36,357 bases of DNA from Candidatus Methylumidiphilus alinenensis (lineage in GTDB: Bacteria > Pseudomonadota > Gammaproteobacteria > Methylococcales > Methylococcaceae), in the NCBI GenBank assembly GCA_003242955.1, contig QJPH01000513.1, positions 1 through 36,357 on the forward strand, written 5' to 3'. Below the pieces are notes generated by a model, which had not been told where the DNA came from, did not search any database, and was given only the letters and a program-made list of their open reading frames with translations. This document shows positions 7,223 through 33,153 of this stretch, in pieces. The stretch's first letter is position 1, and each line of letters opens with the position of its first letter. The position numbers and the translations under genes were made by a program.

Positions 7223-8224
7223 ATGGACTTTACAACAAACTACATGGGGCTGAAACTGCTGCATCCCATCGTCGCTTCGGCTGGGCCTCTTTCCGGCACC
7301 TTGGACGGAATCAAACGGCTGGAAGATGGCGGCGCGGCGGCGGTCGTGATGTTTTCTTTGTTTGAAGAGAATATCCGGCACGAAAATGAGGCTTTTTCGC
7401 ACCTGATGGAATCGGGTACGCAAAGCTTCGCCGAATCACTCAGTTATTTTCCTGATGTCGATTCCTTTCATGTCGGACCGGACAGTTATCTCAATCTGCT
7501 AAGGCAAGCCTCGGAATCGGTCGAAGTGCCCGTCATCGCCAGCCTCAATTGTGTCACTGGCGAGGGGTGGATTGACTATGCCAAGCAGATGCAACAGGCT
7601 GGCGCTAGCGGGCTTGAATTAAATATTTATTCGGTCGAAGCCGATCTTGATGCCACTAGTGAAGAGGTCGAGCAGCGCTACCTGGATATTCTGGCGGCAG
7701 TTAAATCGACCGTCAACATACCGGTCGCACTCAAACTCAGTCCTTTCTTCAGCGCGATGGGGCATATGGCAAAACGTCTGGACCAAGCGGGGGCCGATGC
7801 ATTGGTGTTATTCAACCGTTTCTATCAGCCGGATATTGACATTCAAGCCTTGGAAGTCAAGCCTTCCTTGGGGTTAAGTTCCGCCGGCGAAATCCGCCTG
7901 CCGCTGCTTTGGATCGCCCTGCTGCACGGCAAGCTCAATGCCTCATTGGCCGCCACCCGTGGCGTGGAAAAGCCGGACGAAGTAATCAAATACCTGCTGG
8001 CCGGGGCCGATGTGGTGATGACCACATCCGCGCTATTGCGCCACGGCCCGTCTTACATGACTGTTTTGCTGGATGGCTTAAAGGCATGGATGGAGGCGCG
8101 GCGATTCTCCTCCGTCGCCCAGGTCAGGGGTGGCATGAGCCGCAGTAAAGTCGCCAACCCTGGTGCGTTCGAGCGGGCAAATTATATCCGCGAGTTGGAA
8201 AGTTTTCAGAGTGCATATATTTAA
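7223..8224 (+). CDS. Dihydroorotate dehydrogenase-like FMN protein (PreA-like)
   Basis: This 333-residue TIM-barrel flavoprotein of the class-1 DHOD superfamily begins MDFTTNYMGLKL. It shows the family order: PIVASAGPLSG near residue 16, VIASLNCVTGEGW near 97-109, LELNIYSVEAD near 124-134, and VALKLSPFFS near 163-172. ATG 7223 is chosen over GTG 7220 because AAGGAG (7210-7215) is then at ideal spacing. This protein type is often encoded directly beside nifJ, for example in cyanobacteria (from memory). Its substrate is unknown to me and it need not be part of pyrimidine synthesis. It probably exchanges electrons with the GltD-like protein or ferredoxin. It is the last gene of the operon and is followed by a strong palindrome at 8232-8260. 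Confidence 0.85.
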   Translation: MDFTTNYMGLKLLHPIVASAGPLSGTLDGIKRLEDGGAAAVVMFSLFEENIRHENEAFSHLMESGTQSFAESLSYFPDVDSFHVGPDSYLNLLRQASESVEVPVIASLNCVTGEGWIDYAKQMQQAGASGLELNIYSVEADLDATSEEVEQRYLDILAAVKSTVNIPVALKLSPFFSAMGHMAKRLDQAGADALVLFNRFYQPDIDIQALEVKPSLGLSSAGEIRLPLLWIALLHGKLNASLAATRGVEKPDEVIKYLLAGADVVMTTSALLRHGPSYMTVLLDGLKAWMEARRFSSVAQVRGGMSRSKVANPGAFERANYIRELESFQSAYI

Positions 8225-22785: not shown

Positions 22786-24543
22786 TTACGGGGTTTGCTG
22801 ACGATGGCGCGAACGCAGTTCGACGATTGCCGGGCCAAGCACCGATCCGGCCAGTAACAGGCATAATCCGGTCCATTCAAAGGCGTGTTGGTTTATCCCT
22901 CTGGCAAGCCCCCAAGGTTCGTCCGGCGATATGACCACATGCTCGAAGACCGTTATCCAAATTCCTGAAAAACCAATCCATCCGGCCAGGAAAACTTCTT
23001 CCAAGTCGGCTTGGTTTTTTCCGTTGACCCAAGACAACAGCGCTAAAAATAAAGCCGGGGCCGAGTAGAGTGCCAGAGGGTAATCGCGGTAGCGTGAATC
23101 GAAGACAAGAAGCATGCAAACCATGGCAGCGCCGAAGAGGAATGCGGCCCGCAAAGCGCCTGACCAGCGGGCAATGCTATCGAAGCTTTGATCGTTGCGC
23201 CTTACCCAGCGCAAACAATGGCTAACAGGAGCCAAGCTGGGTGTTGTACCCCCTAGCGAACAACAGGCGGCCAAAGGCCGGCCAAATAAAAATACGGCGG
23301 CTATCAGGAAGGCGAAATATAGGCTTGTGACTATCCATTCCAACGGTGTGCGGTTCGCCATCACCATCTCGCGCAAAAAACCGGTAGAAGCGCCGCCGCC
23401 TATGGCGCTGATGGCGAGCAAAGCCATGGCATGGACACTGTTCAGTCGTAACCGTTCAATCCAGGATGTCCTCGCACCCAGGGAGGAGTGAACGGTTACG
23501 GTCAATTTACGCCGTTCCAAGTAGGCAAACACGGCAAATACCAAACCCATCATGGCGAAAGCCACATAGCTCCACGACTGGGCTTCTGCCACGGGTCCGC
23601 GAAACGGAAACTTCGGGGTGTCGTAACTGTCATACAAACCCCAATAGCCGCCGACTGCACCCTCCAATTTTCGCTTCCAAGGCTGATCAAACGCCTCAAT
23701 GGCGTTGTAGTTTATTTTTTCCAGATTCGCACGCACAGAGAACTCACGAATGAAACGCGCTTGGTTGACCAGGCTAGGCACTGCACCTTGGCGCTGTCGG
23801 CCAAAGCTTGGCCAACCCGTTTCGCCAATCATCACCTCCTTGCCTTTCAGTTCATTTTTAACTTTTTGATAAATGTGGCTGACATGTCCGACGGCATTGC
23901 CAATGTCGACAGGGCGGTCTTCCCAATAAGGCAGGATGTGAACAGTGACAAAGGAGACGGCATCGGCTAGTTCCCTATTGCGTAGCCAGAATTCCCAAAC
24001 ATCGGCATACGTCACCTTGACACCGGGAACGGCAGACTTGACACGCTCGATATAGGCCCTTATCACTGATGCGGGTTGCTCCCCGCGCAACAGAACCTCG
24101 TTTCCGACTACAATGGCTCGGATGGTGGACGGATATTTACGGGCAATATCCACTGCGCGAGTCAGTTCCTTTTCATTATCGCTTTGACTTCGTCCGATCC
24201 ACATTCCTAGCAAAACTTTGATCCCCAGTTGTTGGGCGATCCTTGGCACTTCATGCAAACCCTGTCCTACGGAATAGATGCGCACACAATCGAAGCGTTG
24301 TGCCAAATTTTTCAAGTCAGCCTCGATTTGAGATGCCTCAATGTGCATGGATCTAACGAGCGGTGTTTGATGCGGTTTGTGGTAGGGTGAGTAGGACACG
24401 CAGCTAAGGCGGTCTGTCGGGGCATCCACAAGAATAATGGGTTGGCTTAAATTCCACCAATGCCAGATCGTCAGCAAGGAAGCCACTGCCAGGATGAAGG
24501 AAACGAACCAACGTTTCAATAGCATGTCAATCACACCATCCAC
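22786..24543 (-). CDS. GH17 family membrane protein (beta-1,3-glucan hydrolase/transferase)
   Basis: This 585-residue protein has an N-terminal anchor (about 11-27, WFVSFILAVASLLTIWHWW), a periplasmic GH17 domain (about 45-325), and about seven membrane segments at 330-575. The GH17 acid/base Glu149 lies in VVGNEVLLRG and the nucleophile Glu241 in MIGETGWPS. Other family marks are VRIYSVGQGL (87-96), ILPYWEDRP and NAIEAFDQPWK. GH17 enzymes act on beta-1,3-glucans, and bacterial versions often work as transglycosylases that branch or extend chains. The partner is probably the NdvB-like synthase at 25530, whose own N-terminal GH17 domain is clearly homologous. Start could be ATG 24543 or 24525. 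It is divergent from the small exported protein at 24678. Confidence 0.85.
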   Translation of the reverse strand: MDGVIDMLLKRWFVSFILAVASLLTIWHWWNLSQPIILVDAPTDRLSCVSYSPYHKPHQTPLVRSMHIEASQIEADLKNLAQRFDCVRIYSVGQGLHEVPRIAQQLGIKVLLGMWIGRSQSDNEKELTRAVDIARKYPSTIRAIVVGNEVLLRGEQPASVIRAYIERVKSAVPGVKVTYADVWEFWLRNRELADAVSFVTVHILPYWEDRPVDIGNAVGHVSHIYQKVKNELKGKEVMIGETGWPSFGRQRQGAVPSLVNQARFIREFSVRANLEKINYNAIEAFDQPWKRKLEGAVGGYWGLYDSYDTPKFPFRGPVAEAQSWSYVAFAMMGLVFAVFAYLERRKLTVTVHSSLGARTSWIERLRLNSVHAMALLAISAIGGGASTGFLREMVMANRTPLEWIVTSLYFAFLIAAVFLFGRPLAACCSLGGTTPSLAPVSHCLRWVRRNDQSFDSIARWSGALRAAFLFGAAMVCMLLVFDSRYRDYPLALYSAPALFLALLSWVNGKNQADLEEVFLAGWIGFSGIWITVFEHVVISPDEPWGLARGINQHAFEWTGLCLLLAGSVLGPAIVELRSRHRQQTP

Positions 24544-25454: not shown

Positions 25455-25529
25455 CATTCTTTCGCAGCTTGCCGCAAGGTTTCAGCACCATGATTCTTGA
25501 TACTTCCACCTTATAAACCGCTATTTACT

Positions 25530-28205
25530 ATGCGCCTAATCGTTTTGATTTCCACGCTGATTGCCGCTTTTGCACAATATGCCGTTTGGTATGTGGCGCA
25601 GCAAGTGGCCGAACCGCCCGATATTACCGGCAGGATCGCTTCTCTTTCGCTTGCCTATGAGCCTTCCCATCCTCCGTTTAAGGGGACCGAGAAAAGCATC
25701 GGGGAAATTGACCAAGATTTAAAAATGGTCGCTGATGTCGCCAAAAAAGTGCGAATTTACACGTCAATTGGCAGTGCGGCTGAAATTCCCAAGTTAGCCC
25801 AAAAATACAATCTCGATGTCAGTTTGGGGGTTTGGTTGAATGATGTGCGTGATGCCGTCGGCAATGTGGACCAAAACCTCAAGGAAGCCAACCAAAAAGA
25901 AATGGAATCGGCAATCAAGCTGGCGCGTGAAAACTGGAATGTCCGTGAATTAATCGTCGGCAACGAGGTTATGCTGCGGACGCGTATGGAATACCCTGAC
26001 GTGGCCGAGACCGAAGGGGGGAAATTAAAATTGTCCCCAGAGGCCCAGTTGCGTTTGAACGACTTGGTGGAATACATCCGTCAGGCCAAAACACAAAGTG
26101 CCAAACAGGTGACTACCAGCGAAGGCTGGAGCGAATGGGTGTTCATTCCCGAATTGGTCAAGGAGGTGGACTTCATCACCACCCACAACCTGCCATTCTG
26201 GGAAGAGATAGGCGCTGAAAACGCCGTCGATTATGCGCTGGAAAAATATGATTTGCTGCGTAAGATGTATCCTGGCAAACGAATTCTTATCGGTGAGTTC
26301 GGTTGGCCTAGCCAGGGTTATAACCGCTTGAAGGCGATTCCGAATCCATTGAAGCAAGCCGAGGTCGTGCGGGAATTCTTGCGTGAAGCCGGACGGCGTG
26401 GGATAGACTACAACATCGTCGAAGCTTTCGACCAGCCTTGGAAAAGTTTTGAAGGCAGTAATGCCGGACCCTATTGGGGGCTTTACGATGTCAACCGTAC
26501 ACCTAAGTTCCCATTAAGCGGTCCGGTTAATCAGACTCGAATCGAGTTGGCATACGGCGGCATCTTAATCGGGACGATTATTGCCGCGTGGGGATTGAGA
26601 CGGAGGCGTCCAACGTTCGGACATGCATTAGCCTACGCCTTGGCTGCCAACGCGCTGGGAGCGGGCTTAATCTCCGCTGCGTTTTATCCATTGGATTATT
26701 ACCTGAATCCTGGCTTGTGGGTCATGTGGGGCATCGGTTTCTTGATGATGCTGCCATTGGCTGTCATCACCTTGGCGAAGGTTAATGAAATCGCCGAGGT
26801 GATGCTAGGCCACGAGCCTGTTCGGCTGATTGAGCTTGGAAAAAACTACCAGGTTTTACCCTACCCTGCACCGTTGGTCTCCATCCATGTGCCGGCTTAC
26901 AAGGAACAACCGGATATGTACATGGCGACCTTGGACAGCATGGCCGCTTTGGATTATCCGAACTTCGAGGTTCTAGCCATTGTCAACAACACCCCGGAGG
27001 AGCATTTCTGGAAACCCATCGAAGAACATTGTCGAAAGCTGGGGCCGCGATTTAAGTTTGTCTACCTGCCCAAAGTGTCTGGCTTTAAGGCGGGTGCGCT
27101 GAATCTGGCACTCAAGGACATGGACCCCGATGCGGCGGTTATTGCAGCCGTCGATGCCGATTACCAAGTGGACCCCGATTGGCTTAAAGATTTGGTGCCT
27201 TGGTTCAACGACCCTCAAGTGGCGATTATCCAAGCACCGCAAGACCATCGCGATGGCCACGAAAACCTGCTAAAAACCATCATGAACGCGGAATATGCCG
27301 GCTTTTTCGACATCGGCATGGTGCAGCGCAACGAGGACAACGCCATCATCGCCCATGGCACCATGCTGATGGTGAAGCGTTCTGCCTTCGACGAGGCGGG
27401 CGGCTGGGCCACCGACACCATTGTGGAAGACACCGAACTGGGCTTACGCCTGCTGACCCGTGGCTTTCACGCCCATTACACCCGCAAGCGTTATGGATGG
27501 GGCTTGCTTCCAGATACCTTCCTGGCCTTCAAAACCCAACGCCACCGTTGGGCTTACGGGGCGATGCAAATCATCCGCAAGCATTGGCGTCACATGCTGC
27601 CAAAATCCAAGACATTGACGCCGCAGCAGAAGTACCATTTCGTCACGGGTTGGGCCTATTGGTTTTCCGATTGCGTAGGCACGGCTGTTTCGTTTTTGAA
27701 CCTCATATGGGTTCCATTGATCATCCAGTTCGATCTGGCTTATCCGGCGGTCGCGCTGACCGTGCCGGTGCTGACCGCTGTGTTCGTGAACATTGTCCAC
27801 GCCTGGATGTTGTATAGCCGAAGGGTGCAAATCCCCAAGAAACAAATCATCGGCGCGGCATTGGCTGCGATGAGCTTGCAATTCACCGTGTCAAAGGCTG
27901 TGGTCGAAGGCATGATCCGTGACGGTTTGGCTTTCAAGCGCACGGAAAAGGGTGGCCTAGTCAAAAAGAAAAAAGCCGACCGGCCCGCGCAGACAGAAAC
28001 CATCATGGGCATCTTACTCTTGTCCGGTGCGGTATGGTTGTGGATGGCGAATAAGTTCGATGTCTACGAACAGAACCTGTTTGCGTTGACGGTGTTGATT
28101 CAAAGCATCCCCTTCCTTTGCACCACCGCAATGAGCTTGATCGAAGAAATCCAGAATTGGAAGGCTGCCCGTGCGGAGTCGGTGGATGGCAAAGTTGAAA
28201 AATAA
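25530..28205 (+). CDS. ndvB: NdvB-like beta-glucan synthase: GH17 domain fused to GT2 glycosyltransferase
   Basis: This 891-residue inner-membrane protein starts at ATG 25530; TTG 25497 opens the same frame but is unlikely. A signal anchor (1-20) is followed by a GH17 domain (about 35-330) with catalytic Glu146 in IVGNEVMLR and Glu256 in LIGEFGWPS. Membrane segments lie at about 340-357, 367-386 and 396-416. The cytoplasmic GT2 domain (about 448-700) has VPAYKEQ, VDADY (541-545), the IVEDTELG base (631-638) and QRHRW (670-674), as in processive synthases. At least four more membrane segments follow. NdvB-type proteins polymerise UDP-glucose into beta-1,3-linked, often cyclic or branched, periplasmic glucans. 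The separate GH17 protein at 22786 likely modifies the product. No strong Shine-Dalgarno is visible, and element gamma lies in the upstream region. Confidence 0.88.
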   Translation: MRLIVLISTLIAAFAQYAVWYVAQQVAEPPDITGRIASLSLAYEPSHPPFKGTEKSIGEIDQDLKMVADVAKKVRIYTSIGSAAEIPKLAQKYNLDVSLGVWLNDVRDAVGNVDQNLKEANQKEMESAIKLARENWNVRELIVGNEVMLRTRMEYPDVAETEGGKLKLSPEAQLRLNDLVEYIRQAKTQSAKQVTTSEGWSEWVFIPELVKEVDFITTHNLPFWEEIGAENAVDYALEKYDLLRKMYPGKRILIGEFGWPSQGYNRLKAIPNPLKQAEVVREFLREAGRRGIDYNIVEAFDQPWKSFEGSNAGPYWGLYDVNRTPKFPLSGPVNQTRIELAYGGILIGTIIAAWGLRRRRPTFGHALAYALAANALGAGLISAAFYPLDYYLNPGLWVMWGIGFLMMLPLAVITLAKVNEIAEVMLGHEPVRLIELGKNYQVLPYPAPLVSIHVPAYKEQPDMYMATLDSMAALDYPNFEVLAIVNNTPEEHFWKPIEEHCRKLGPRFKFVYLPKVSGFKAGALNLALKDMDPDAAVIAAVDADYQVDPDWLKDLVPWFNDPQVAIIQAPQDHRDGHENLLKTIMNAEYAGFFDIGMVQRNEDNAIIAHGTMLMVKRSAFDEAGGWATDTIVEDTELGLRLLTRGFHAHYTRKRYGWGLLPDTFLAFKTQRHRWAYGAMQIIRKHWRHMLPKSKTLTPQQKYHFVTGWAYWFSDCVGTAVSFLNLIWVPLIIQFDLAYPAVALTVPVLTAVFVNIVHAWMLYSRRVQIPKKQIIGAALAAMSLQFTVSKAVVEGMIRDGLAFKRTEKGGLVKKKKADRPAQTETIMGILLLSGAVWLWMANKFDVYEQNLFALTVLIQSIPFLCTTAMSLIEEIQNWKAARAESVDGKVEK

Positions 28206-28719
28206 ACATATCATGGCTTTACCAGCCAGCTTGCCGTGGGGTAAGCTTGGAGTTTAACCATTCAGGGGCAGCGCCGCAAAATCCCCAAATTGCCACCTGA
28301 TGAGGAAGGCTTTTCAGCTAAACCGAATTGTGCGATTGCGACTAGGTGTTACGATATCGATGAACAATCTTGTTAATCAGGATGTTCAATGGGGAAGATG
28401 TCACTGACTAAATTGGTCGAAAACTTCCCCATAGCTTGCTTATCGAAATCGGCTAATCGCGGACTGCTGCGTTACCGTTGTGAGTGACAGCACTAAAATG
28501 GATAGCTGCCTGCCTGACAGTTTAGCTATGTATGCTTGGTTACAAGACCTGACCCTGTGCTGTGGTCTGAAGGTTTGTAATATTGCATTAATTAATTCCG
28601 TGGAGGCAGTAATTTTGCGATGATTAGAAAGGGTCATTGGGTGTATTGGGTTGCAAAATGCGGCAATCCAGTTTACGCTGATGTGGTTGATTTTTTTATT
28701 TTATAAACACATTATATCT
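28206..28719. other. Gene-free interval before the AT-rich island
   Basis: No gene is supported here. A weak inverted repeat, ATGGGGAAG ... CTTCCCCAT, with a long spacer lies near 28389-28431. The composition changes from GC-balanced to AT-rich around 28680-28720, marking the left edge of the island. An open frame from TTG 28651 extends the next gene upstream through a hydrophobic stretch, but ATG 28720 fits its family better. Confidence 0.5.
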
Positions 28720-29169
28720 ATGGAAGACTTCGCAGGTGCTTATTTAGCAAGAAAAAAAGATATTTTTGCGTTACCTAATGATCAAAATCATACAATTGCT
28801 ATTTTTCATTTGGGCGGGATAGCGGTTGAATGTCGCCTAAAATCGTTATTGCTTGATTATCATAAAATTAACAAATTTGCTGAAATCAGCAACCGTCCTA
28901 AAGACCCAATGTATAACCAACTCGTTATTAATCCAGGTCATGGATTATCGATAGCTCTCAAACGCATGTCTGATTTTTACAAAAAAGCAAAATCAGACTC
29001 TCAGTTATTAAAACATCTTCAAACTATCCTTTACCCGTTAGGTTCAACTGAGGTTGATTACATTAGCTTACGCTATATTCCACAAACTACTCAATCACAA
29101 GAAGATTGGCAAAAAAGTTTTGATTATGTGTGTGGTTGGCTAGAAAAAAACGAGAAAACAATCGTATGA
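28720..29169 (+). CDS. HEPN-like protein, first gene of a candidate conflict system
   Basis: This 149-residue protein (MEDFAGAYLARKKDIF) has HLGGIAVECRLKSLLL at about 34-49, close to the AVECxLKA helix of HEPN nucleotidyltransferase-associated proteins. SLRYIP near 116 and the final helix SQEDWQKSFDYVCGWLEK match the end of that fold. I see no R-x4-6-H catalytic motif, so it may be a non-nuclease HEPN, perhaps an inhibitory or scaffolding partner. The stop overlaps the next ATG (ATGA, 29166-29169), implying fixed stoichiometry with the large NTPase. It is strongly AT-rich. An alternative upstream start (28681) would add a hydrophobic segment. The fold is inferred from pattern only. Confidence 0.6.
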   Translation: MEDFAGAYLARKKDIFALPNDQNHTIAIFHLGGIAVECRLKSLLLDYHKINKFAEISNRPKDPMYNQLVINPGHGLSIALKRMSDFYKKAKSDSQLLKHLQTILYPLGSTEVDYISLRYIPQTTQSQEDWQKSFDYVCGWLEKNEKTIV

Positions 29170-31838
29170 AAGCCGCTATACAATTACGCAAAGCATTAAA
29201 TCAAAAGTTCCCTAAACAATTTGAATTGGATATTGGTGAAGGCAGTTTTGTTTTACTAACCATTATTTCAAATCAATTTGAAAAATTGACTCGAAAAGAA
29301 CGCTTAGAACAAGTTGAACCATTAATTAATAACGCAGGTTTAACCCCAGGCATTATTGAGCTTTATACACCTGAAGAAGCTACTAACGAAGGCGTTACTC
29401 TTCAAACAAAAGATGATACATTTCCTTTATCATGGCAAGATGCTGCGGCAATGTTATCTGCGGGAAAAACCTCATTCGCTAAACCCCCTAAACATCCTAT
29501 TAAGCGCATAGTATTTTACTCTTATAAAGGTGGCGTTGGACGGACGACCGCGTTAATTCAAACGGCTTTTCAATTGGCAAGACAAGGTAAGCGCGTTGTT
29601 TTAGTGGATATGGATGTAGAAGCCCCTGGATTACAAGCTTTATTACCATCTATAGGTAAACCGGTTGATGAAGGTTTGATTGATTATTTATGGGAGCGTC
29701 AAACGTGTTTTTTTGATGAACATCATCAGCCTAAAATTGAATTAACCAACATTATTTATAGTATTAAAGATAGCCAATCACGCCGTGATTTATTTATTGT
29801 CCCTGCCGGAAAAATAGGGCAACGCTATCTTCAACGTTTATCTATTTTATCTACTACGCATTTATTTTCTGAAACTACCGACCCTTGGTATCAATTTGAA
29901 GAGGAGCTTTGGAATCAATATCAACCAGATATTATGCTAATTGATGCACGAACAGGGCTTAATGAATGGGGAGGATTGTCTTTATTACGACTCGCTGAGG
30001 AAGCTTTTTTCGTTTTATACCCAAGCCAACAAAATGCAGAAGGTGTCTGTTTTATAAGGGATATATTAAAAGAGCTAAATGGTGTTCAAGCTAAACTGGT
30101 GCTATCTTCTATTCCAGAAGGTGCTATTGGACGTTCTTTAGTAGAAAAAATTGAACCTTATTTAAATCTTGACGTAATAATATCAGAAGGAGAGGAAATC
30201 AAAGAAGATGTAATTAGAATTCCTTATCTTCCTGATATTGCAGCCAGCTATCAGTTTCCAGTTGAGAATGCTCTAACTTGGTATACACCCTTAGTCAATG
30301 TTTTGCTTGAAGTCAGTGGCATTGAAAAAATAAAAGAGGTGTTGGCTGAATCTGACCGTTTAGAGCTTATTAGATCATTAAACTTTCCAGAACGTAACGC
30401 AGCCAGTATTTTAGACACGGATTTTGACGCAATTTTTCAAAAAACAGCCGATTTTGACCGCTGTTTAGAAGACCAAGTATGGGTTATTCGCGGAAGAAAA
30501 GGTACTGGTAAATCAACTCTCTACACTTTATTTACGCAACACAGAGAAAATGCCGAAAAACGCTCGCGTGGTCGCTTGGTTAATGTGGAGATTATTTCAG
30601 GGCATGGCGTTAGCAATAGCTTTAAACCTAATGCGGATGTTTTTTCAGATATTCAAAAAAAAATTAATGCCGATGATACAGATTGGTTATCGCTATGGCG
30701 TGCTTATGCAGTTATTCGACTGTATCAATCTTGTCCTGAATTTAGCGATATTATCAAAAAAGCAAAATTATCTGGCTTATACTCTCGCTTACAATACAAC
30801 TTTAATACCACTGAATACACCGTATGGGAATCTAAACATACTGCTAAATTATTAGAATTTGTAACTGATATAAAACTCAATGGCTTGTGTCGAGATGCTA
30901 TCACACATTTAAATAGCAACTTAAAAACGAAAAATCAAAAAATATGGCTGCTTTATGATGATTTAGACCAAGATATTAAAGAAAATACACCTTGGCAAAA
31001 AGAAGCACTCGGTGGATTGATGCGTTTAATTTATGACACCAACAATAACAGTTTGTATCAAATCCGTTTTAAAGTTTTTTTGCGCGAAGATATTTGGAGT
31101 AATTTAATTTTCACGAACAAAAGTCATTTTGGTGATGCAAGAACGTTGCTTTTACAATGGGGAACTGAAGATTTTTTCCGATTAGCTTATCGTTTAGCGA
31201 TTGGAGGGTCGGAAAAATTTAGAAGTCTTGCTAATCGAATGGCTCCTTTAGTCGAGAACACATTAGATGAAAGTAATGAAGAATCCTTGCGTCAACTCTT
31301 ATCTCCCTTATGGGGCTTACGTCGTCAAAAAATTCAAAATGCTTACGTTTCAACATGGGTTTATTCTCGCTTAACAGATTCAAGTGGAAATACTTATCCA
31401 CGTTCATTAACTATATTATTAAGTAGAGCTAAAGAAGTTGAGTTACAACAACCTCAAGGAAAGTCAGCACCTAATGACCATTTACTACGTTGGAACTCTC
31501 TTACCAAGGGTTTAGAAGCTGCTTCCATAGAACGGTGTGATGCTATTAAAAATGAATATCCTGAGTTATCTGAATTTTTTAATAACATTGGTGATTTGGG
31601 GTCTTTATTTAGCGAGAAGCAATTAAAAGATTTTTGGCAAAAATCAACGCAATTGCACACACAATTTGATGCTTTTGATACGTTTTTGAAGCGCTTAAAA
31701 GATATTGGTATGCTACAAGATAAAAAATACTCTCAAAAATATAATTACGCCATTGCCAATATTTACATAGATGGCTTTAATATAAGGACAATGGGGCAAA
31801 AAAATAACAGCGCGCAAGTTCCGATTAGCGATGCGTAA
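29166..31838 (+). CDS. Large fusion NTPase: BolA-like N-terminus, ParA-type KGGVGRT ATPase, second P-loop NTPase
   Basis: This 890-residue protein begins at ATG 29166. Residues 1-75 resemble a BolA/KH-type alpha-beta fold (VLLTIISNQFEKLTRKERLE, ending GIIELYTPEEA). Residues 113-385 are a ParA/MinD-like (SIMIBI) ATPase: deviant Walker A YSYKGGVGRTT (118-128, signature Lys121), VLVDMDVEAPG (145-155), IMLIDARTGLNEWGG (257-270). Residues 405-760 hold a second NTPase: Walker A RGRKGTGKST (442-451), Walker B WLLYDDLDQD (594-603), VFLREDIW (637-644), YPRSLTILLSRA (744-755). The C-terminus looks like a winged helix. It is coupled to the HEPN-like gene by a 4-base overlap. The last ten or so codons lie in DNA of different composition, so the native C-terminus may be altered. 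KGGVGRT ATPases recur in predicted bacterial conflict systems. The function here is unknown to me; defence is inferred. Confidence 0.8.
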   Translation: MKAAIQLRKALNQKFPKQFELDIGEGSFVLLTIISNQFEKLTRKERLEQVEPLINNAGLTPGIIELYTPEEATNEGVTLQTKDDTFPLSWQDAAAMLSAGKTSFAKPPKHPIKRIVFYSYKGGVGRTTALIQTAFQLARQGKRVVLVDMDVEAPGLQALLPSIGKPVDEGLIDYLWERQTCFFDEHHQPKIELTNIIYSIKDSQSRRDLFIVPAGKIGQRYLQRLSILSTTHLFSETTDPWYQFEEELWNQYQPDIMLIDARTGLNEWGGLSLLRLAEEAFFVLYPSQQNAEGVCFIRDILKELNGVQAKLVLSSIPEGAIGRSLVEKIEPYLNLDVIISEGEEIKEDVIRIPYLPDIAASYQFPVENALTWYTPLVNVLLEVSGIEKIKEVLAESDRLELIRSLNFPERNAASILDTDFDAIFQKTADFDRCLEDQVWVIRGRKGTGKSTLYTLFTQHRENAEKRSRGRLVNVEIISGHGVSNSFKPNADVFSDIQKKINADDTDWLSLWRAYAVIRLYQSCPEFSDIIKKAKLSGLYSRLQYNFNTTEYTVWESKHTAKLLEFVTDIKLNGLCRDAITHLNSNLKTKNQKIWLLYDDLDQDIKENTPWQKEALGGLMRLIYDTNNNSLYQIRFKVFLREDIWSNLIFTNKSHFGDARTLLLQWGTEDFFRLAYRLAIGGSEKFRSLANRMAPLVENTLDESNEESLRQLLSPLWGLRRQKIQNAYVSTWVYSRLTDSSGNTYPRSLTILLSRAKEVELQQPQGKSAPNDHLLRWNSLTKGLEAASIERCDAIKNEYPELSEFFNNIGDLGSLFSEKQLKDFWQKSTQLHTQFDAFDTFLKRLKDIGMLQDKKYSQKYNYAIANIYIDGFNIRTMGQKNNSAQVPISDA

Positions 31839-32028
31839 CTGAGGAATGCTGACTTTGAAATGTGAGGTTATGCAAGCTAATTGCACCGCAGCAGGTTCTT
31901 GGTCCGCCGATAAGTCCTTAAAGCGCATTCGTAAGGAGCAATAGCGGTTCCGCAGCGTATAGCGCAGTATGTTGAAACCGACTTTGGTGAACGAAATTGG
32001 GCTTTGAATCATTCGGCGCAATACGGTG
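31839..32028. other. Right edge of the AT-rich island, REP-like junction
   Basis: GC content rises abruptly near 31800. CCGATTAGCGATGCGTAAC (31822-31840), which includes the last codons of the NTPase, resembles the GGTTAGCG...GTAACC repeat type seen inside element epsilon. No gene is supported. A minus-strand frame here reads across the junction and into the NTPase gene, and was rejected. Confidence 0.45.
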
Positions 32029-33153
32029 TTACGTCATAACGATTTCGTAGCCACTGCTCCTCCCGCCCTTGCCAGTCGGCTTGAGGCAAGCTTTTTCAAC
32101 TAATTCAGAAAGTTCCCGGTAAGCTGTGGAACGGCTGGTTTTGGTCAGGCTCATGTACTTGCGTGTGTTGATACCGCCTTTAAAGCCATCCAGACCGGCA
32201 TCAAGCATGCGGTTTAACACTTTGCGCTGGCGTTCGTTAAGGTCCGTAGCCTGATGCCGCAGCCAGAATCGAGCCTTCGCCAAAGTGTCGTCCACCGTCT
32301 TTTCCGCCGCCGTAGCCGAGGCTGTGACTTGTGCCAAAAACCACGCCAGCCAGGCGGTGACATCCATGCCACCGCGTTGTGTGCGTTCAAGAATGTTGTA
32401 GTAACTCTCCCGCTCACGCAGGATTTGTGCTGACAGGCTGAAAAAGCGCAACGGTTGACGCTCATCTTGAGACAGGGCCATGTCGGTGATGGCGCGGGCC
32501 AGCCGTCCGTTGCCGTCTTCAAAAGGATGGAGCGTCACGAACCATAAGTGCGCAATACCCGCACGGATTAACCCGTTCAAGTCAGTCGGCGATGCATTGA
32601 ACCAAGCCAGGAAGCGATCCAGTCCTTCTTCAAGCCCTTCACGCGGCGGCGAGGTGAAATGGACATGTTCGTGGCCGATGCGCCCAGAAACGACCTGCAT
32701 CGGTTCCTCGCCGCGCAGAGTGCCGATCAAAATCTTATGCAATCCCGAGTAGCCCGTGGGAAATAAGCTTGCCTGCCAGCCAAACAAGCGTTCTGCCGTC
32801 AGCGGCGAGTCGTATTGGCGGGTGGCATCCAGAAGAACCTCGACCAAGCCATCGACAGCGCGTGGCGGGTCAGGCAGGCCAGTGGAAGGCAAACCGAGAT
32901 GGCGTGCCACCGATGACCGAACCGCATCGAAGTCCAATCGCTCGCCCTCAATCGCGCTGGTGGTAACCCCGTTCTCCGCCAAAATGGTGGCGACGGCCTC
33001 CAAAGACAGTTTGGCATCAAGCAGTTGGGTGACACCGAGAACCTTCCCTTGGGCCAGCCGCGCACACGCTAGTGCCTGGGCAAGCACACCCTGGTCCCAG
33101 CGGAAATGCGGCCAGTCAGATTGTTGCCAGACCCACGTTTTAGGCAATTGCAT
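32029..33153 (-). CDS. Fic family protein (DUF4172-type N-terminus), putative AMP transferase
   Basis: This 374-residue protein has an intact Fic active site HPFEDGNGRLAR at 209-220 (catalytic His209, Asp212, Arg217/Arg220). The upstream inhibitory motif TSAIEG (65-70) fits [S/T]xxxE[G/N], placing it in the class with an N-terminal autoinhibitory helix. The flap region (about 155-170: SGRIGHEHVHFTSPP) is typical. The N-terminal region (WVWQQSDWPHFRWD) is the DUF4172 start. A C-terminal winged helix (about 310-374) could bind DNA. Fic enzymes modify target proteins, usually by AMPylation, with roles as toxins or regulators; the target is unknown. It has GC-rich codon use unlike the adjacent AT-rich island, and the opposite strand. 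Genes of this kind are often found near defence loci. Confidence 0.9.
   Translation of the reverse strand: MQLPKTWVWQQSDWPHFRWDQGVLAQALACARLAQGKVLGVTQLLDAKLSLEAVATILAENGVTTSAIEGERLDFDAVRSSVARHLGLPSTGLPDPPRAVDGLVEVLLDATRQYDSPLTAERLFGWQASLFPTGYSGLHKILIGTLRGEEPMQVVSGRIGHEHVHFTSPPREGLEEGLDRFLAWFNASPTDLNGLIRAGIAHLWFVTLHPFEDGNGRLARAITDMALSQDERQPLRFFSLSAQILRERESYYNILERTQRGGMDVTAWLAWFLAQVTASATAAEKTVDDTLAKARFWLRHQATDLNERQRKVLNRMLDAGLDGFKGGINTRKYMSLTKTSRSTAYRELSELVEKACLKPTGKGGRSSGYEIVMT

Follow-up and report, generated by a model that had tools for sequence, protein, structure and literature searches.

A HEPN gene overlapping a BolA-like/KGGVGR/Sll1717 ATPase gene in Candidatus Methylumidiphilus alinenensis: a fused form of the candidate system PDC-M28

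The PADLOC-DB 2023 candidate models PDC-M28 A, B and C fit a pair of genes located in a 36,357-nucleotide stretch of Candidatus Methylumidiphilus alinenensis (contig QJPH01000513.1, assembly GCA_003242955.1; hereafter the window), in which a small gene for a HEPN-fold protein (28720..29169, + strand) precedes a large gene for a multidomain ATPase (29166..31838, + strand). PDCs are linked to a guilt-by-embedding screen and are called unvalidated in PMC12988326, and PMC11514479 uses the term for putative genes. In 2013, a HEPN protein of the MAE_18760 family and a ParA/Soj ATPase were proposed to form a toxin-antitoxin dyad (PMC3710099). The same paper described an Ex3[KR] motif in HEPN proteins, and reported that HEPN-T proteins such as AF0298, and AbiV, lack the histidine of the R-x4-6-H motif but keep its arginine; they carry another conserved histidine in an insert between helices 2 and 3, which is a possible alternative ribonuclease (RNase) site. 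MinD/ParA-like domains that are predicted to be inactive occur in other conflict systems (PMC7159879).

The window pair is a fused, BolA-bearing form of the existing candidate PDC-M28 with the alternative-histidine pattern. Proteins of the A, B and C types are encoded together here; the large protein matched M28B (3e-31) and then M28C (3e-25), in that order, and the small protein matched M28A weakly (E 0.0012). However, B and C form one frame of 890 amino acids in the window, whereas they are separate in L026 and L146-L152 (locus labels are ours); that B and C are separate genes in PDC-M28 is taken from the separate PADLOC models and not from PADLOC's own rule. M28B also aligned only from its profile position 124, and the fused type has a BolA-like start. 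Like the MAE_18760 dyad, the pair sets a HEPN gene beside a gene for a SIMIBI ParA-like ATPase, but that family keeps R-x4-6-H (table in PMC3710099), whereas the window partner has the alternative-histidine pattern instead, and the window ATPase carries BolA-like and Sll1717 parts. With HEPN-T (PF05168, AF0298 type) and AbiV the small protein shares the kept arginine, the missing motif histidine, a conserved histidine between helices and Ex3K; the differences are that it is tied to a large ATPase instead of being paired with MNT or encoded alone, and that the window protein itself has no Pfam match.

A sequence-only reading of this DNA had called the system undescribed. This went too far for the pair as a whole, since the PDC-M28 models and the 2013 dyad exist. 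For the BolA module, no report turned up in the searched full texts, a body of literature outside which most subscription papers and preprints lie. The same search returned no paper on KGGVGR or Sll1717, and neither BolA nor SIMIBI occurs as a whole word in the available parts of PMC8195603, PMC10853773 and PMC12839542. On balance, we lean towards a system set off by infection: the ATPase would be the sensor and would restrain a HEPN effector; its defence, RNase and sensing roles are predictions.

The small-gene frame (149 amino acids) runs from the ATG at 28720 to the stop at 29169 and the large-gene frame from the ATG at 29166 to the stop at 31838, with an ATGA stop/start overlap at 29166..29169 (+ strand). 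Two AT-rich genes overlapping by ATGA amid GC-balanced DNA had been proposed from the letters, and both coordinates and composition agree: the GC content was 0.356 in the pair vs 0.512 in the remaining window, and the lowest value among 134 equally long (overlapping) stretches outside the pair was 0.441. Residue numbers below refer to the 890-amino-acid protein; some domain scans used a 902-amino-acid frame, which is 12 residues longer (the Sll1717 domain is 429-875 there).

The patterns FYS[YF]KGGV and VD[MF]D[VL]EAP served to find relatives, and the best 80 of at least 545 related genome stretches were analyzed; together with the window, L010 and L024 they make 83 fused-type loci. Conservation inside the search words is partly by construction, and R126, H74, R118 and Y119 lie outside them. 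Large-protein starts were chosen by a rule favouring closeness to the partner's stop. A survey of homologous gene pairs had been suggested as a check, and it placed a HEPN partner directly upstream in 77 of the 83 loci by a hidden Markov model (HMM) that 66 of these had built. The distance matrices of partner and ATPase were highly correlated (r = 0.967, 58 pairs, 0 of 1000 permutations as high). The 36-kb window was also compared with seven relatives (blastn, E 1e-8), and DNA homology was confined to the pair and its edges in all seven. The homologous spans lay within 28684-31812 in L027, L028, L035, L054 and L029 (in L027 only about 100 bases precede the match, and the L054 sequence breaks off within the large gene), and L154 showed three short pieces inside the large gene. 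The closest relative, L036, shares with the window a cassette at 28449..31887 (+ strand) with 84% DNA identity, including about 270 bases 5' of the first gene.

In a tree made by a quick method, the window grouped with Methylococcaceae, then with Gallionella, and then with a supported set of seven including Electrothrix and two Spirulina. Gammaproteobacteria, Gallionella, Desulfobulbaceae and Cyanobacteria occur together in one supported group. The seven phylum labels needed 13 changes on the tree against a minimum of 6, a number that paralogy and binning errors could inflate. Because homology is confined to the pair, the two distance matrices agree and distant taxa mix in one tree group, the pair travels as one unit between distantly related bacteria. 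Plasmid-borne relatives were found in Nostoc (L024, fused) and in Enterobacter (L026, unfused). Some copies look broken: the large-gene frame of L028 is interrupted, the HEPN frame of L079 is split, and L104 retains only a partner-like HEPN remnant by reading of its sequence; a module that is gained and lost would be expected to leave such copies. The stretch at 28449-28719, kept in L036, has an intermediate GC content of 0.417 and probably serves as the promoter region of the cassette itself. Just outside this stretch is an inverted repeat (28389-28402 / 28419-28432), and no cassette-flanking direct or inverted repeat pair of the kind that marks mobile-element ends was detected within 28100-32200.

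A toxin-antitoxin addiction module without an infection sensor would likewise agree with the overlap or close spacing of the genes, their co-inheritance and their mobility. Here the HEPN protein would be the toxin, and the ATPase fusion would neutralise it by nucleotide-dependent binding or modification and merely keep the cassette. We judge this explanation unlikely. A three-domain partner of 890 amino acids with two NTPases far exceeds the usual antitoxins as generally known, and restriction and BREX-like operons contain some of the relatives. The same idea was proposed for the dyad of PMC3710099, but the HEPN family of that dyad keeps the R-x4-6-H that the window partner lacks.

A HEPN-type partner without R-x4-6-H had been proposed from the stretch AVECRLKSL (residues 35-43), and structure prediction bore this out. 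The small-protein model (predicted local distance difference test, pLDDT, 95.7) has a HEPN fold, and its best structural re-alignment was to the sacsin HEPN domain (Z 10.6, root mean square deviation (rmsd) 2.8, 119 residues). HEPN chains head the list by Z: among the top 20 re-aligned chains (Z 6.5-10.6), 17 are HEPN by label or paper and three have no telling label, and the next row is an unrelated protein (Z 5.6). Twelve of the 17 are labelled HEPN or MntA-HepT-type toxin-antitoxin, four (1wwp, 2q00, 2jpu, 1ylm) are HEPN according to PMC3710099 or as the same protein, and 5yep (SO_3166-SO_3165) is a HEPN-MNT pair (PMC4621449). The tool warns that Z values of this size can arise among helical bundles, and we assigned the fold because of the run of HEPN rows, not because of the Z values as such. 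The top three Foldseek rows for the model were HEPN proteins too.

For the family, a motif rule gave 70 partners, and 66 of them were aligned, without L010, L024, L066 and the short L087. Pfam HEPN (PF05168) matched 22 of the 66 at E 0.1 (best 3.6e-8), AbiV-HEPN (Pfam) matched six, and PDC-M28A matched 61 (best 5.2e-12). H74, R118 and Y119 were present in 66/66, at a mean column identity of 25%. E37 and K41 were also present in 66/66, which is partly by construction because the motif rule contains E and K. In 11 further fused-type partners found by HMM, E37 and K41 were kept in 11/11, H74 in 10/11 and R118-Y119 in 9/11, the exceptions being a split frame (L079) and a cut frame (L087). The E, K, R and Y were found in all seven unfused relatives. 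In the model, H74 is placed after the long helix 22-47 and before the helices that follow it.

The window protein has no histidine after R118, and thus no R-x4-6-H at the end of helix 3. The motif occurs at the conserved arginine in only one of the 66 partners (L088), while such a spacing exists somewhere in 43/66; many cyanobacterial partners have an R-x5-H before helix 2, which is not the catalytic place and is absent from the window protein. The residues of the published alternative-histidine pattern are present, namely Ex3[KR] as E37-K41, a histidine between helices 2 and 3 (H74) and the arginine R118, and by these sequence features the small protein resembles HEPN-T and AbiV. We infer that E37, H74 and R118 may meet in space and that the partner may cleave RNA. 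The missing R-x4-6-H need not mean an inactive partner, because H74, R118 and E37 resemble the published alternative active site.

It is also conceivable, at a level that we consider quite unlikely, that the HEPN protein is a non-enzymatic adaptor binding nucleotide or RNA, and that the ATPase fusion acts on invading DNA in a plasmid-exclusion or partition-like manner. The absence of the canonical motif from the window protein, with the histidine at that spacing in L088 only, would agree with such a role, as would the best fold match, the sacsin HEPN domain (Z 10.6), which we take to be a nucleotide-binding domain. H74 is not kept in every unfused relative, and ParA/MinD-like and BolA-like folds include DNA binders. 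However, H74, R118 and Y119 are invariant in the 66 fused-type partners, and therefore a catalytic site fits better than a loose adaptor. Furthermore, domain-library scans recognised no nuclease domain in the large protein.

The two ATPase domains of the large protein that we assign to a putative sensing switch were each recognised above cut-off. NF047398 (KGGVGR-motif variant ATPase, NCBIfam) matched residues 113-297 (29502..30056, + strand) with 163 bits vs a cut-off of 90, and NF047389 (Sll1717 family P-loop ATPase, NCBIfam) matched residues 417-863 (30414..31754, + strand) with 139.6 bits vs 75. These are the SIMIBI ATPase with KGGVGRT and the second P-loop NTPase with GRKGTGKST and DDLD that the sequence-only reading had named; the motifs are located at K121-GGVGR-T127, G443-RKGTGK-S450 (Walker A, 443-450) and D598-D-L-D601 (Walker B, 598-601). 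In the AlphaFold2 model (mean pLDDT 86.5, predicted template modelling score (pTM) 0.67) the middle domain re-aligned to MinD with Z 23.6 and rmsd 2.7 over 234 residues.

The canonical ParA/MinD P-loop motif is KGGxGK[ST]. We aligned 64 ATPases, from the window and 63 genome loci (L010, L024, L066 and L104, all longer than 800 amino acids, were left out). The P-loop lysine was replaced by R126 in 64/64, and the first lysine was K in 56 and R in 8; the KGGVGR domain thus lacks the canonical P-loop lysine. A change of this lysine would suggest altered hydrolysis and a nucleotide-bound switch. D260, R262 and G264 were present in 64/64. In the second ATPase, K445 and D598 were kept in 64/64 and K449 in 63/64; its comparison with PDB sequences gave mainly weak P-loop matches, the best being an ORC/Cdc6-type chain (E 0.0053). 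The matches of the large protein included no nucleotidyltransferase, which sets it apart from an MNT-type partner.

Residues 1-75 of the large protein (29166..29390, + strand) form a BolA-like domain, as had been proposed. The basis for this identity is sequence profiles together with the succession of secondary-structure elements, which in the model is helix, strand, strand, helix, strand, helix. BolA PF01722 matched 31 of 51 N-terminal domains searched singly against Pfam at E 1 (best 4.5e-4). The remaining Pfam families each matched one of them at most, and the window's own domain alone had no Pfam match. When the 51-domain profile was searched against all PDB sequences, the top row was mouse BolA-like 1v9j (E 7.1e-6), and 11 of the 19 rows were labelled BolA. 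The profile-profile search that had been proposed as a check also pointed to BolA: hhalign against 11 BolA proteins from relatives (a reference set drawn from 30 fetched loci) gave a probability of 96.7 and an E-value of 3.5e-10 over 56 columns, compared with a probability of 0.1 for a control with the HEPN alignment. When the entire large protein was used for a fold search, the ParA domain filled the match list, so that no structural BolA match appeared.

The domain HMM matched 74 of the 83 fused-type loci, 51 of which had built the model. The loci without a match were L069 (cut at a contig edge), L079, L084, L089, L092, L097, L098, L100 and L101, and none of the eight unfused loci scanned (L026, L146-L152) matched. 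Two histidines (RH and IHA) were invariant in the 11 cellular BolA proteins. In the BolA-like domains of the ATPases, a histidine was found at position 47 in 1/51 and at position 60 in 2/51, and therefore the domain is without the family's usual histidines; a histidine occurred at position 58 in 12/51.

A few of the more distant relatives lie inside defence operons of the type I restriction, BREX-like or methylase/PLD-helicase kind. In L100 (Spirochaetales), HsdS precedes the pair by 50 bases and HsdR follows it after 18 bases. The pair of L070 (Anaerolineales) has a PglXI-like gene on one side and, on the other, a gene for a BrxHI-like helicase that overlaps the end of the pair. In L147, from the window's family, HEPN, B and C are unfused, and a DUF1156 methylase gene and a PLD-helicase gene flank the set; L148 appears by its sequence to be arranged like L147. 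In addition, L088 has Fic-like and PglX-like neighbours, and L095, which has no HEPN gene, has an IetA neighbour. Embedding in defence operons makes an antiphage role more likely. We also counted the PADLOC models matched at E 1e-10, 201 among 105 nearest neighbours vs 54 among 92 distant genes (105 of the 126 listed nearest neighbours were used; partners, near-duplicates and size cases were left out). We give this enrichment little weight because models and not proteins were counted, and many models match one helicase or HsdS.

The KGGVGR ATPase family occurs beside different likely effectors, because TIR genes precede it in a genome of the same genus (G001). There, two TIR genes (E 1.7e-19 and 1.6e-11) lie directly before an 881-amino-acid KGGVGR ATPase (L153, contig C67, 1243-5479). 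This system resembles the window pair in having the same ATPase family beside likely effectors, but its effector is TIR and not HEPN, it has no BolA-like match, and its C-terminal half has a weak AAA_22 match (below cut-off). In L095, a GNAT-like acetyltransferase gene recognised by eye (7296-7739) lies upstream of a BolA-KGGVGR protein in the usual HEPN place, which may be another effector swap; L090 has an acyltransferase-like gene, by reading of its sequence, at the partner position. The window's genome (6.57 Mb, 597 contigs) holds two more proteins above the KGGVGR cut-off, L143 (contig C59, a frame of 1699 amino acids) and L144 (contig C229, 990 amino acids). Near L143 is a gene with weak TIR_2/DUF4062 matches below cut-off, and beside L144 is a large gene that is ATPase-like by eye. 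Six viral contigs (L107-L112) carry the Sll1717-like ATPase part and gave no HEPN or BolA match.

Conserved single-copy housekeeping homologues had been named as the outcome that would speak against a conflict system, and the relatives are patchy instead. A structure prediction without a BolA-like or HEPN fold, the other such outcome, did not come about either. A full-length relative was found in 1/60 relative genomes besides the window's own and in 0/368 other genomes of the class at E 1e-40. The nearest relatives among the best 80 of at least 545 are from Methylococcaceae. A genome of the same family (G017) has only a 49% identical version vs 70% for Gallionella. A PDC-M28A-type gene was detected in 18/299 phylum genomes at E 1e-5 and in 0/14 control genomes. 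These 18 are not all this system, and M28A counts overstate it, because the M28A search in the window's own genome matched a different HEPN gene (contig C132), without an adjoining ATPase, and not this pair. That gene (L160, 1462-2252, 135 amino acids, HEPN-like) overlaps an unrelated-looking gene of 134 amino acids, and there is no ATPase within 3.3 kb.

The ParA/MinD fold and the metabolic genes among the nearest neighbours of relatives could suggest an ordinary chromosomal housekeeping or partition function. However, the same cassette is found in different surroundings, and both the full-length relatives and the M28A-type gene (whose presence does not imply the full set) are rare. We rejected this reading as very improbable because of the patchy, cassette-like occurrence.

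In the infection-triggered system that we favour, two horizontally moved genes would form a conflict system whose large protein acts as a nucleotide-controlled sensor and switch. A nucleic acid or a protein is the probable cue bound by the BolA-like domain, the dimer state of the KGGVGR ParA/MinD-like domain probably shifts with the bound nucleotide, and assembly is probably driven or gated by the Sll1717 ATPase. The large protein would hold the HEPN partner in an inactive state and, on sensing infection or invading DNA, would free or activate it. The partner is probably an RNase acting through the alternative site E37/K41/H74/R118, and growth would stop. Sensing, restraint, RNase activity and phage protection are what we infer from the gene pair, its domains and its relatives.

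Several observations weigh against this explanation. On the side of the small protein, the Foldseek HEPN match was not significant by E-value (best 0.47), a profile compared with PDB sequences matched no HEPN chain significantly (4nqf, E 0.72) and ranked REV1 chains above 4nqf (E 0.12-0.19), and Pfam recognises no HEPN in the window's own small protein. The H74 position in the seven unfused relatives is H in three, N in one and a gap in three, where gaps may be misplacements since HMM-found partners were added to a fixed alignment. R118 lies in the short helix 116-119, beyond helix 94-104, and its equation with the motif arginine is sequence-based only. On the side of genomic company, six of the 83 loci have no detected partner (L069, L077, L076, L090, L095, L104; in L069 and L077 the ATPase frame is at a contig edge), and L070 alone among the embedded examples carries the BolA-like domain, which is missing from L100 and L147. 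The Pfam matches of the nearest neighbours include metabolic genes (from the first 25 of 179 families). Six of ten chosen neighbours had no PADLOC match at E 1e-20, one of the four matches being to a subtilase only, and two of ten proteins of a second neighbour set had none at E 1e-10. No match was found among 50,697 phage records, PDC-M28 is unnamed in the full texts searched, and the flanks of the pair in the window are cell-surface and housekeeping genes plus Fic.

These flanks consist of a GT2 glycosyltransferase gene on the 5' side and, on the 3' side and opposite strand, a DUF4172-Fic gene (32029-33153) and NAD synthase, then TruD. Further 5' of the cassette are two glycosyl hydrolase 17 (GH17)-type genes on opposite strands, at 22786-24543 and 25497-28205; the GH17 match of the latter is below cut-off, and it is fused to a GT2 synthase. 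The sequence-only reading had placed the pair in an island next to a Fic gene, but Fic is only weakly indicative of an island: DNA homology with L036 ends at 31887, before Fic, and Fic sits in DNA of normal GC content. We rejected Fic as a component of the system on the same boundary. A Fic-like gene is likewise a neighbour in L088, a distant relative, which we treat as a coincidence.

As a tentative and less probable extension, a BolA-like (class II KH) domain without the usual histidines may have been co-opted as the sensor part of an immune ATPase, and this ATPase would control a HEPN RNase of the alternative-histidine type. We know of no earlier immune role for the BolA fold. If true, this would be its first, and it would add a new type of sensor to bacterial defence, with a BolA-type module joining the domains of bacterial immunity. 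If our reading of the pair holds, a candidate known by a model number only would turn into a tangible system of two proteins whose candidate active-site residues are named, on a defined cassette small enough for direct cloning and testing. It would also put to the test the idea from 2013 that HEPN proteins lacking R-x4-6-H may nonetheless be RNases.

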